A DNA stretch of 64,000 nt from Mycolicibacterium diernhoferi. GTDB taxonomy: Bacteria > Actinomycetota > Actinomycetes > Mycobacteriales > Mycobacteriaceae. The notes beneath the pieces were generated by a model. That model saw nothing but the letters and a program-made list of their open reading frames with translations, did no database searches and was not told where the DNA came from. Location: contig NZ_CP080332.1 of assembly GCF_019456655.1 (NCBI RefSeq), forward strand, positions 1,612,001-1,676,000, written 5' to 3'. This document shows positions 22,956 through 40,578 of the stretch, one piece after another; the first letter of the stretch is position 1, and each line of letters starts with the position of its first letter. A program made the translations under genes and the position numbers.

Positions 22956-24098
22956 GTGACGACTCAGCGCGCTTACGACGGCGTGGACGGTCCCCGCGTG
23001 GTGATCGCACACGACTACCTGACCCAGCGCGGGGGCGCCGAGAAGGTCGTGCTGTCCATGAGCAAGGCGTTTCCCGATGCACCGATCTACACCCTGCTCT
23101 ACGACCCGGCCGGCACCTACCCCGAATTCGCCGACCGCGATGTGCGGGTGTCGCCGCTGAACCGGCTCGCGTTCTTCCGCAAGCAGCACCGCGCGGCGCT
23201 GCCGCTCCTGCCGGCGGCCGCGTCGTCGATGTTCGTCGACGCCGATGTGGTGGTGACCAGCAGCAGCGGCTGGGCGCACGGTTTCCGCACGAACGGCGCC
23301 AAGCTGGTGCACTGCCACACCCCGGCGCACTGGCTCTACACCCCGGACATGTACCTCAAGGACCAGGGCGACGGCATCAAACGCGGCCTGCTGAAGGTGG
23401 CCGGACCGGCGCTGAAGGCGTGGGACCGTCGCGCCGCGCGGACGGTGGACCGGTATCTGGCGGTTTCGACGATGATCAAGGACCGCATCGAGGGCGCCTA
23501 TGGCATCGAGGCGGACGTGCTGCCCTCGCCGGTGGCGATGCGCACCGACGTCGAGGTGGAGCCGGTGCCGGCCGTCGCCGAGTGGGCGACCGAGGACCAG
23601 CCGTTCTACCTGTGCGTGTCCCGGCTGATGCCCTATAAGAACGTCGACAAGGTGGTCCGTGCCTTCGCCGGCAGCGACCGCCGGCTGGTGGTGGTGGGCC
23701 GCGGCCCGGAGGCCGGTCACATCGAGTCGATCCGCACCCCGAACGTGGCACTGCTCTCGGACCTGACCGACGCGCAGATGGCCTGGCTGTATCAGTCGTG
23801 CCGGGCCCTGATCGCGGCCAGCTACGAGGACTACGGCCTGACCCCGATCGAGGCCGCGGTGTGGGGCAAACCCGCGGTGGTGCTGCGCTGGGGAGGCTTC
23901 CTGGACACCGTGATCGACGGCGTCACCGGGACATTCTTCGATGAGCCGCAAGCGGATTCGATCGCCGCGGCCCTGGACCGTTTCGCCACCCTGAGCTTCG
24001 ACCCGCAGCTCATCTGCAAGCACGCGGACCAGTTCACCGAGCAGCGTTATTCGCAACGTCTCTACGAGGCGGTCGACGGACTCGTTGCACCGTGCTGA
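22956..24098 (+). CDS. GT4 glycosyltransferase (exopolysaccharide locus, gene 1)
   Basis: A 380-residue GT-B fold enzyme of family GT4. The N-terminal domain starts [20 protein letters not shown], and [16 protein letters not shown] is the acceptor-side segment; the C-terminal domain has [15 protein letters not shown] and the EX7E motif EDYGLTPIE, which binds the nucleotide sugar. The opening resembles mannosyl- or rhamnosyl-type transferases of O-antigen clusters; the sugar is not deducible. The GTG is preceded by GAGAGGA. It is the first gene after the accD5 divergent promoter and probably opens the locus. No membrane segment: a cytosolic enzyme acting at the membrane. Confidence 0.85.
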
Positions 24099-24221
24099 GG
24101 GGGCCGGCCGGATTCGGAGACGATTCTGTACTCGGGCCGGGCGACTCAGGGCATGTGGCCACCGGATCGGCACACCGGTCGCTATCGTTTACGCGGATTC
24201 CTCAACAAGGAGCGATGATTC

Positions 24222-24902
24222 ATGTTTCGTGAACCGGCTTCGGCAGATCCGGCTGACATAGCCCGGAAGAAGGCCGCCGCTCCGGCGCTGAGGATGGCGC
24301 CGAAGTCGGAATACGTTCTCGACGAGAACAACCGGGTGACCCACTACAAGATGCAGAGCCTCGGGTTCGTCCCGAAGGCGAAGAACCGCATCGGTGAACT
24401 GGTCTTCAACCTTCTGGTCACCTACATCCCGTCGCACCGGATCCGGCAGGGCTTCCTGCGGTTGTGCGGGGCCAAGATCGGTAAGCACTGCTCGATCCTG
24501 CGCGGCACCACGGTGCTCGACCCGGCGTACCTGACCATCGGTGACGGCGTGGCCATCGGTTTCCGCTGCATGCTCGACGCGCGCGCCGGCATCTACATCG
24601 GCAACCAGGTCACCATCGCCAGCGATGTGCAGATCATCGGCGGCGGCCACGACGTCAACCACCCGGACTTCCTGCCGGTGCCGATCCCGACGGTGATCTG
24701 CGACTACGTGTGGATCGCCAGCCGGGCGATGGTGCTGCCGTCCCTCGTCGGCCGCGGCGCGGTGGTGGCCGCGCAGGCGCTGGTCACCAAGGACGTCGAA
24801 GAACTCAGCATCGTGGGCGGCGTGCCGGCCAAGGTGATCGGTAAACGTGATCCAGATGTATTGCTGTACACCAACACTCGTCGACCCCCGCCGTTCTACT
24901 GA
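24222..24902 (+). CDS. Left-handed beta-helix (hexapeptide) acyltransferase, gene 2
   Basis: A 226-residue protein with hexapeptide-repeat turns (CGAKIGKHCSILRG, YIGNQVTIASDVQI) and the catalytic-site segment GGGHDVNHPDF with the expected His, of the WbbJ/maltose-acetyltransferase type. It probably O-acetylates a sugar of the lipid-linked repeat unit using acetyl-CoA. AAGGAG lies before the ATG. The stop overlaps the next ATG (TGATG), placing it in an operon with the following three genes. A TATCGT sequence about 34 bases upstream may be its own -10. Confidence 0.85.
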   Translation: MFREPASADPADIARKKAAAPALRMAPKSEYVLDENNRVTHYKMQSLGFVPKAKNRIGELVFNLLVTYIPSHRIRQGFLRLCGAKIGKHCSILRGTTVLDPAYLTIGDGVAIGFRCMLDARAGIYIGNQVTIASDVQIIGGGHDVNHPDFLPVPIPTVICDYVWIASRAMVLPSLVGRGAVVAAQALVTKDVEELSIVGGVPAKVIGKRDPDVLLYTNTRRPPPFY

Positions 24903-39258: not shown

Positions 39259-39309
39259 CTCGGCTTGCGCCGCAGGTCGTCCCGCGCGGGCTCGGGTAAT
39301 GTTGCCGCC

Positions 39310-40578
39310 ATGCGGCGCTCGTCGGTGACCAGTCCGGCGGGATGGGCCTCCAAGATTTTCGCGGCCGTCGCCGCGGTGGCGTTGGTGTTCACCGGATTCA
39401 AACTCCTGCCGCTGGCGATCCCCGCCGCCACATGGCTTCTCAGCGCGACGTACAACTCGTTCTCGGCGCTGCAGGGCCCGCCGGTACCCGTACAGACCGC
39501 AGACCTGTCCGGCAGCGGCCCCGGCTCGCTGATCTCCACCACCACCATGCCCGCGGTGACGCAGACCTGGGAGGGGCGCAACGTGCGCGCGGCCCGCGTC
39601 GTCTACCGCTCGACCTCCGGGGACACGGGCGCCCCGACGGTGGTCTCCGGATCGGTCTTCACCCCGTTGGGCGAGCCGCCCGCCCGAGGTTGGCCGGTGG
39701 TGGCGATCGGTCACGGCACGGTCGGTATCGACGGGCCGTGCGGGCCGTCGCTGTCCCCGTGGCTGCAGGGGGCGCTCAGCTTCGTGGCGCCGCTGGTCGA
39801 CCGGGGATATGCCGTCACGGTGGCGGACTTCGAAGGGCTGGGTGTCAAGGGCGTGCACCCGTATCTGGACGCCCGCACCGCGGGATTGAACATGATCGAC
39901 TCGGTGCGCGCGCTGCGGCACACCTTCCCGGGACAGGTGTCGAGCACCTGGGCCGCGTTCGGCCATTCACAGGGCGGCGCGGCGGCCTGGGCGGCCAACG
40001 AACAGGCCGCCGACTACGCCGCCGAGATGCGGTTCATCGGCGCCGTCGCCGCAGCACCGGCCGCCGACGTCGCCGGGCTGGTCGACCTGGCCGAGGCGGG
40101 CGCCCTGAACAACGAGCAGCGGTTGAGCATGGCGATGATCGTCGAGTCGGCGGCGCGCCGGCACCCCGAAATCGATCGCGACGACTTCCGCCGCGGCGCG
40201 GCCGCCGAGCACTGGGCGGTGCTGACCGCCTGCCAGGGTGACGAGCTGCTGCAGCGCTCGGCCGCCGCGGGCAAACTCACCGGGGACGACTTCGTGCCGC
40301 GTACCCCGCAAGCCGCCGAAGCGCTACGGAAGCTGTTGCAGCAGTGGGCACTTCCGCAGCGTGCGCTGTCGGGTCCGCTGTCGGTGTGGTACGGCGGGGC
40401 GGACGGCTACCTGGACGAGGAGTGGACGCGCGCCGCGATCGCCGAGGCCTGCGCCATGGGCGGTACGGTGACGGTTCAGCTCGAACCGGACAAGGGGCAC
40501 AGCGACGTGGATCTGGGGTCGCAGTTGACATGGCTGCTCGACCGTTTTGCCGGGCAGCCGGTGCGCAATGACTGCTGA
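39310..40578 (+). CDS. Secretory-lipase-family protein (paralogue D), gene 14
   Basis: A 422-residue alpha/beta hydrolase with an N-terminal hydrophobic anchor or signal (about residues 15-40). Nucleophile Ser220 in GHSQGG; GGADGY and DKGHSD give the likely acid and base. Motifs YRSTSGDTGAPTVVSGSVF and IGHGTVGIDGPCGPSLSPW make it nearest to paralogue C. It follows the WcaJ-like gene by 51 bases and overlaps the birA start by 11 bases, so the accessory locus is transcriptionally joined to birA on its right side. Confidence 0.8.
   Translation: MRRSSVTSPAGWASKIFAAVAAVALVFTGFKLLPLAIPAATWLLSATYNSFSALQGPPVPVQTADLSGSGPGSLISTTTMPAVTQTWEGRNVRAARVVYRSTSGDTGAPTVVSGSVFTPLGEPPARGWPVVAIGHGTVGIDGPCGPSLSPWLQGALSFVAPLVDRGYAVTVADFEGLGVKGVHPYLDARTAGLNMIDSVRALRHTFPGQVSSTWAAFGHSQGGAAAWAANEQAADYAAEMRFIGAVAAAPAADVAGLVDLAEAGALNNEQRLSMAMIVESAARRHPEIDRDDFRRGAAAEHWAVLTACQGDELLQRSAAAGKLTGDDFVPRTPQAAEALRKLLQQWALPQRALSGPLSVWYGGADGYLDEEWTRAAIAEACAMGGTVTVQLEPDKGHSDVDLGSQLTWLLDRFAGQPVRNDC

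Follow-up and report, generated by a model that had tools for sequence, protein, structure and literature searches.

The 64,000-nucleotide stretch of the Mycolicibacterium diernhoferi genome analyzed here (contig NZ_CP080332.1, G000:C1:1612001-1676000; below, the window) contains a locus between accD5 and birA that, judging from its domains and modeled folds, very probably assembles and exports a polysaccharide. We give an even chance to the more specific reading that its product is a heteropolysaccharide, assembled by a pathway of the Wzx/Wzy type and acyl modified outside the cytoplasmic membrane. The accD5-to-birA interval measures 18,001 bp in this 6.0-Mb single-contig genome and holds 14 intact open reading frames (ORFs), mostly overlapping, in the order GTa, AcT, GTb, wzx, GTc, wzy (minus strand), wzc-like, LIP1, wzz2, LIP2, AT3, LIP3, PHPT, and LIP4. 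Bases are shared at most gene junctions, and larger gaps occur before AcT, between the divergent wzy and wzc-like genes, and before PHPT. A sequence-only reading of the window had placed a Wzx/Wzy-type locus with extensively overlapping genes at this site, and both points are backed, the former by domains, folds, conservation, and selection. The backbone of the locus is ordinary; its lipase set, a kinase residue, and a missing exporter are unusual.

The initiating enzyme needed by a Wzx/Wzy pathway is a polyprenyl glycosylphosphotransferase (PHPT), and the WcaJ/WbaP-type protein encoded at 37732-39258 (plus strand; start uncertain, ORF from 37471) matched PF02397 (E = 7.4e-67) and scored above the cutoff of TIGR03025 (E = 2e-123). 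Three GT4-type glycosyltransferases are encoded on the same strand: GTa (22926-24098; PF00534, 1e-20; start uncertain, ORF from 22875), GTb (24902-26029; PF13692, 1.2e-7), and GTc (27203-28345; PF13692, 2.2e-13). AcT (24222-24902, plus strand) is a WcaF-like hexapeptide O-acetyltransferase (PF00132; 1.8e-25 to the WcaF family NF007797, below its cutoff), and AT3 (34834-36126, plus strand) is a membrane acyltransferase (PF01757, Acyl_transf_3; 5.9e-24). The Wzz/PCP co-polymerase function is represented by two PF02706 proteins on the plus strand: the Wzc-like protein (30016-31518), in which a Wzz part is joined to a bacterial tyrosine kinase (BY-kinase)-like domain (PF13614), and Wzz2 (32815-33543; PF02706 at 0.00065, below the Pfam cutoff), which occupies a conserved position. 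The sequence-only reading had named an initiating transferase, three GT4 transferases, a flippase, an O-antigen polymerase/ligase-type protein, two Wzz-type proteins, and two acyltransferases. All are present and intact at about the positions given; the list omitted four PF03583 genes, which belong to a set of 14, and did not record that wzy lies on the minus strand or that one of the Wzz-type proteins is a Wzz-kinase-like fusion.

Pfam alone failed to identify the flippase: the window's own protein (26010-27206, plus strand) had no Pfam flippase match, and 4 of the 27 members of its alignment matched Polysacc_synt (best E, 0.00089). Its identity was therefore settled by fold. An AlphaFold model built from the 27-row alignment (mean predicted local distance difference test [pLDDT] score, 87.6) matched MurJ first (6nc8; E = 3.5e-6), with WzxE (9g9p; E = 1.1e-4) within the top ten; MATE transporters, which belong to the same superfamily, matched as well, and the fold therefore does not identify the cargo. 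On the strength of this model, the protein is a Wzx-like flippase of the MOP superfamily.

The locus genes are a conserved set under purifying selection. Compared with LT549889.1 (locus L126, from a record titled Mycobacterium aurum), 13 of them had ratios of nonsynonymous to synonymous substitution rates (dN/dS) of 0.04 to 0.28; LIP4 is outside this set, as the gene runs off L126. In the same record, the LIP2 match is broken across two frames near its 3' end, through a sequencing error or a real change. The gene set recurs in 20 further Mycobacterium loci; the sequence-only reading had proposed to look for such co-occurrence across mycobacterial genomes. All 20 have PHPT, Wzc, Wzz2, and at least three LIPs (copy numbers in Mycobacterium loci run from three to seven). 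Counts were 19 each for Wzx, GTa, AcT, GTb, and Wzy, 17 for GTc, and 16 for AT3. These loci were drawn from 22 other Wzy-bearing genomes, with 19 counted at the Wzy locus and one (G149) at an accD5-birA locus without wzy; G112 (a cut contig, with two LIPs seen), G070 (fragments), and G159 (PHPT only) were excluded. The glycosyltransferases missing from G090 are either absent or beyond the stretch examined. Fifteen loci of other genera, from 29 Wzy-bearing genomes, were covered by stretches of only 20 to 38 kb, and missing genes may therefore lie outside them. In these we found Wzy in 15, Wzc in 14, LIP, Wzx, and GTc in 13 each, AT3 in 12, Wzz2 in 11, at least three LIPs in 11, and PHPT in 4. 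Gene order is largely kept. Exceptions are G329 and G339, where the block of glycosyltransferase genes has the opposite orientation, and G154, G152, and G035, where PHPT and two LIPs lie left of wzy. The dN/dS values and the recurrence of the set in other species and genera rule out chance or decayed genes. Some loci hold additional genes. In G329, which belongs to another genus (L187/L188), two ORFs resemble GDP-mannose dehydratases and one a UDP-glucose dehydrogenase (by eye), and a phosphodiesterase-like protein (PF01663, below the cutoff) is encoded inside the locus of G055 (L078:5451-6914), with a similar frame seen by eye in that of G066.

Of 198 genomes in the genus, 23 (the window's included) carry a Wzy homologue, as do 32 of 251 genomes in the family (8 of 31 genera). 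Among 296 genomes of the class, strong matches occurred in four, all from the window's family (the other 10 matches had E values of 9e-11 to 3e-4), which speaks against kin outside the family. A recent acquisition as a single-strain oddity is ruled out as well, given that the set is present in other species and genera. The patchy spread within the genus is compatible with loss or with transfer. A search of the plasmid collection for copies of wzy and LIP2 yielded none within the limits set. One scan covered 34 loci, with species names taken from the record titles; these names include M. aurum (90% identity in Wzy), M. frederiksbergense, M. neoaurum, M. canariasense, M. bacteremicum, M. elephantis, M. 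yunnanensis, M. hodleri, M. llatzerense, and Williamsia deligens. Among the matches listed, nearly all genomes with a PHPT relative of at least 64% identity also have Wzy. This does not hold for G159, whose accD5-birA interval contains PHPT and nothing else of the set; in G098, the PHPT is just 53% identical.

The most distinctive feature of the locus is the set of four PF03583 ("secretory lipase") genes interspersed in it, together about 5.2 kb and all above the Pfam cutoff. All lie on the plus strand: LIP1 (31523-32818; 3.7e-16), LIP2 (33512-34837, start uncertain; 3.6e-19), LIP3 (36126-37355; 4.6e-12), and LIP4 (39265-40578; 4.6e-19). In a crude scan, the N termini were lipoprotein-signal-like, with a lipobox-like motif, in LIP1 and LIP2 and hydrophobic-anchor-like in LIP3 and LIP4. 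The Ser-Asp-His triad is present in all four window proteins and was kept in 71 of 72 aligned LIP2-4 rows. Among LIP1 rows, 13 of 21 keep it, and the other 8 have Gly in place of Ser and another residue in place of His; seven of these eight were present in the LIP tree, all in one branch. That tree was built from 82 locus rows and 26 chromosomal rows, with rows of <75% coverage removed and with the window's genus as the only source of chromosomal rows. In it, a fully supported branch separated locus from chromosomal LIPs. The LIP1, LIP2, and LIP3/4 branches (support of 99, 97, and 98) each include Mycobacterium and other genera, and the LIP set is therefore older than the genera. PF03583 scores were low for locus LIPs and mostly high for chromosomal ones. 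Genomes of the genus with this Wzy had a median of 8 PF03583 genes (n = 23) versus 3 in those without it (n = 175; P = 5e-14 [by a Mann-Whitney test]), a difference that is uncorrected for kinship and partly built in, as the locus itself supplies about four. At least seven PF03583 genes were found in 9 of the 175 genomes without this Wzy. In the six such genomes examined (G050, G088, G177, G124, G087, and G159), the PF03583 genes listed were largely scattered and did not form a single run.

The presence of four LIP genes makes an acyl-modified product likelier than a plain polysaccharide. In the pathway that we propose from sequence and models, PHPT would start the repeat unit by transferring hexose-1-phosphate to polyprenyl phosphate. 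The unit would be lengthened by GTa, GTb, and GTc and perhaps acetylated by AcT. The unit would then be flipped by Wzx and polymerized by Wzy, with chain length set by the Wzc-like protein and Wzz2. By analogy, LIP2-4, held at the membrane by their lipobox-like or hydrophobic N termini, may be serine hydrolases that work as CalA-type transesterases and would add acyl groups to the polymer or shift them along it, with the help of AT3 in most loci. Two precedents back this acyl step, the Starmerella lactone esterase and the ester-bound fatty acids of Rhodococcus polymers, both described below. LIP1, encoded between the chain-length genes, may be partly or wholly a glycan- or acyl-binding subunit, because one subclade has lost the catalytic Ser and His. 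The predicted product is an amphiphilic exopolysaccharide in or on the mycomembrane, resembling the fatty-acid-bearing polymers of Rhodococcus. In favor of this reading are the family and fold matches, the purifying selection, the recurrence of at least three LIPs in most loci, the higher PF03583 count of Wzy-bearing genomes, the separate branch of locus LIPs, and the triad kept in LIP2-4. More tentatively, and with distinctly less confidence, we suggest that mycolic-acid bacteria may owe their acylated exopolysaccharides to this type of gene cluster. It would be an ancient cassette joining a Wzx/Wzy line to a dedicated set of membrane-held lipase-fold transacylases and a pseudo-enzyme (LIP1), whose polymer would be made amphiphilic and held in the mycomembrane without a Wza-type channel.

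Several observations weigh against the proposed acylating pathway. The Ser-Asp-His triad does not discriminate transfer from hydrolysis. AT3 is missing from 4 of the 20 Mycobacterium loci, which also weakens an AT3-to-LIP relay as a general mechanism. LIPs were absent from 2 of the 15 loci of other genera. At least three LIPs were found in 26 of the 34 title-named loci; one has two (L150), three lie on short contigs (L140, L147, and L153), and four full-length loci have none. Of these four, L135, L136, and L159 encode Wzy, Wzx, and AcT with no LIP within 21 kb, and L158 has Wzy alone. As this trio comes with neither lipases nor the usual glycosyltransferases, it may make a different product from the same core. 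The tree program warned of long branches meeting in the LIP tree. The membership of CalA and the Starmerella lactone esterase in PF03583 is presumed. Finally, the genome holds no gene of the pyruvyltransferase family PF04230, and we rejected a polymer pyruvylated in the manner of Rhodococcus for that reason.

The same LIP data bear on a rival reading in which these proteins are hydrolases that trim acyl or acetyl esters or release the polymer from lipid, leaving AT3 and AcT as the sole acylating enzymes. We regard it as unlikely, yet as the strongest of the alternatives. PF03583 members are named secretory lipases, the nearest solved relative of the LIPs is an esterase (3h2g; E = 2.9e-11 for LIP1), and the triad is kept; purely hydrolytic LIPs are a poorer fit to the three to seven copies per Mycobacterium locus and to the loss of Ser and His in 8 of 21 LIP1 rows.

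The Wzy-like protein (28325-29938, minus strand) raises a second alternative. It matched PF04932 at 1.7e-6, below the Pfam cutoff, and all 27 members of its alignment matched the same family. Its model (mean pLDDT, 74.2) had a single PDB match under an E value of 0.001, the O-antigen ligase WaaL (7tpg; E = 7.3e-7). The protein thus appears to combine Wzy_C family membership with a WaaL fold, features with which a polymerase and a ligase would look alike. If the protein is a ligase, a short oligosaccharide would be put onto lipid or protein, and the product would be a glycoconjugate instead of a polymer. The confident match to WaaL, the Pfam family name (O-antigen ligase), and four other Wzy_C matches in the genome speak for such a role. 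We nevertheless consider it improbable: two Wzz-type genes, which a ligase would not need, adjoin wzy here and in most loci, and a glycoside hydrolase gene lies beside wzy in other loci. As for the four further Wzy_C matches, two lie with a PHPT within 40 kb at G000:C1:5375889-5415307, which suggests another polysaccharide locus in this genome, and the others are at 0.91 and 1.14 Mb.

The CapA/CapB kinase chain of S. aureus is matched by the Wzc-like protein (E = 8.1e-25), in which GRST takes the place of GKST. Neither hallmark of a BY-kinase of the Wzc/CapB kind was found. The Walker-A lysine is present in 0 of 44 aligned rows (L148 and G299 being the same locus), with Arg in 39 of 44, and the C-terminal tyrosine cluster is lacking: the last 60 residues contain no Tyr in 43 of 44 rows and one Tyr in G137. 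We infer that the protein acts on chain length and that its kinase part is altered or dead. An exporter of the Wza/OPX family (PF02563) is absent from the whole genome by a search whose control matched 4 of 14 known genomes. The locus had been called complete in the sequence-only reading. That description goes too far in view of the missing exporter, the apparently altered kinase part, the choice between polymerase and ligase, on which sequence does not decide, and the supply of sugar nucleotides, for which we found no gene among the 14.

A glycoside hydrolase gene adjoins wzy on the same strand in G066, G068, G137, G157, G196, G098, G133, and G011, among others, and a search of 50 stretches, some of them duplicates, gave a match to this hydrolase in 37, with a score above 300 bits in 31. 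The window has two weaker relatives outside the locus, both on the plus strand and both matched by the G066, G196, G098, and G329 hydrolases. One, downstream of purE (44398-45558; PF02449/PF00150), sits beside a hexapeptide acetyltransferase gene (45600-46223; PF00132, 4.2e-15) that the AcT query matched at 32%, and we infer that this pair is linked to the locus. The pair (44398-46223) has the appearance of a second small locus-related insertion, between purE and an acyl-CoA dehydrogenase gene. The other, of the same family (49850-50929; PF00150, 4.4e-6; start approximate, ORF from 49406; matches from 49931), precedes rmlD in a row (48241-52750) formed by an LCP protein gene (minus strand), the locus-type glycoside hydrolase, rmlD, and a GT2 gene.

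This neighborhood is the basis for the least probable of the three alternatives, in which an LCP-family protein would attach the product to peptidoglycan or arabinogalactan as a wall-linked glycopolymer and the LIPs would only adjust the outer membrane. Its appeal lies in the position of LCP, rmlD, and GT2 some 8 to 12 kb downstream, where a hydrolase of the locus type separates LCP from rmlD, and in the LGFP repeats carried by the G196 hydrolase. We doubt it, as LCP, rmlD, and GT2 look like an ordinary arabinogalactan-linker neighborhood, such as we presume for M. tuberculosis, and the 14 locus genes include none in which we saw an LCP protein.

The flanks of the locus are accD5 on the left (20926-22566, minus strand; PF01039 [Carboxyl_trans], 7.7e-206; 99% identity to L126) and birA on the right (40568-41374, plus strand; PF03099, 5.2e-15, and PF02237). 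In M. tuberculosis, accD5 and birA are presumably adjacent. Among the matches listed, 121 genomes appeared in both the accD5 and birA lists, 114 of them with both genes on one contig; the gap between the two was at most 151 bp in 29 of the 114 and up to 81 kb in others. For the 20 Mycobacterium loci, birA was found in 19 of the stretches and accD5 in 16; the G098 locus sits elsewhere, and the accD5-birA gap in that genome is 4.2 kb. At 15 such sites of Wzy-less genomes (L106-L125 relatives), 10 hold a different PHPT, and window queries found no LIP match at 1e-4 in any of the 15. The accD5-birA interval is thus variable and is occupied in several different ways.

Surface polymers of mycolic-acid bacteria, acidic or acylated, are known mostly from chemistry as regards how they are made and held. 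With a conserved locus in environmental mycobacteria, traits such as biofilm formation, hydrophobicity, and hydrocarbon contact could be approached through genes that can be deleted, and the accD5-birA site can serve as a map of envelope diversity among species. The locus also raises two questions: whether lipase-fold proteins can act as polysaccharide acyltransferases, and how a polymer crosses the mycomembrane without a Wza-type exporter. The suggestion that this polysaccharide locus is undescribed agrees with our search of the openly licensed literature, in which no such locus was found.

Compared with known Wzx/Wzy pathways (the Escherichia coli group 1 capsule, colanic acid, and Gram-positive CpsABCD systems), the locus has in common a PHPT, GT4 glycosyltransferases, a MOP flippase, a Wzy/WaaL-fold protein, a Wzz protein with a BY-kinase-like domain, and acetyltransferases. 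It differs in having four PF03583 proteins inside the operon and in lacking the Walker-A lysine, the tyrosine tail, and a PF02563 exporter. An island of Rhodococcus equi 103S (REQ40580-780), in a related genus, has been proposed to hold extracellular polysaccharide genes (PMC2947987). The Rhodococcus polymers FR2, SM-1, ATCC 53968, and S-2 carry ester-bound stearic and palmitic acid, and the review that describes them mentions no "gene cluster," "Wzy," or "flippase" in its text (PMC12786566). These polymers, also from a related mycolic-acid genus, are known from chemistry; pyruvylated Rhodococcus polymers differ from what would be expected of the window genome, which has no PF04230 gene. The Starmerella lactone esterase transesterifies a glycolipid and has acyl transfer in water in common with CalA (PMC11210130). 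Like the LIPs, these are serine hydrolases, with acyl-sugar substrates on the yeast side and acyl transfer predicted by analogy on the LIP side. The CalA and Starmerella proteins are single secreted yeast enzymes, whereas the LIPs form membrane-held paralogue sets within a polysaccharide operon.

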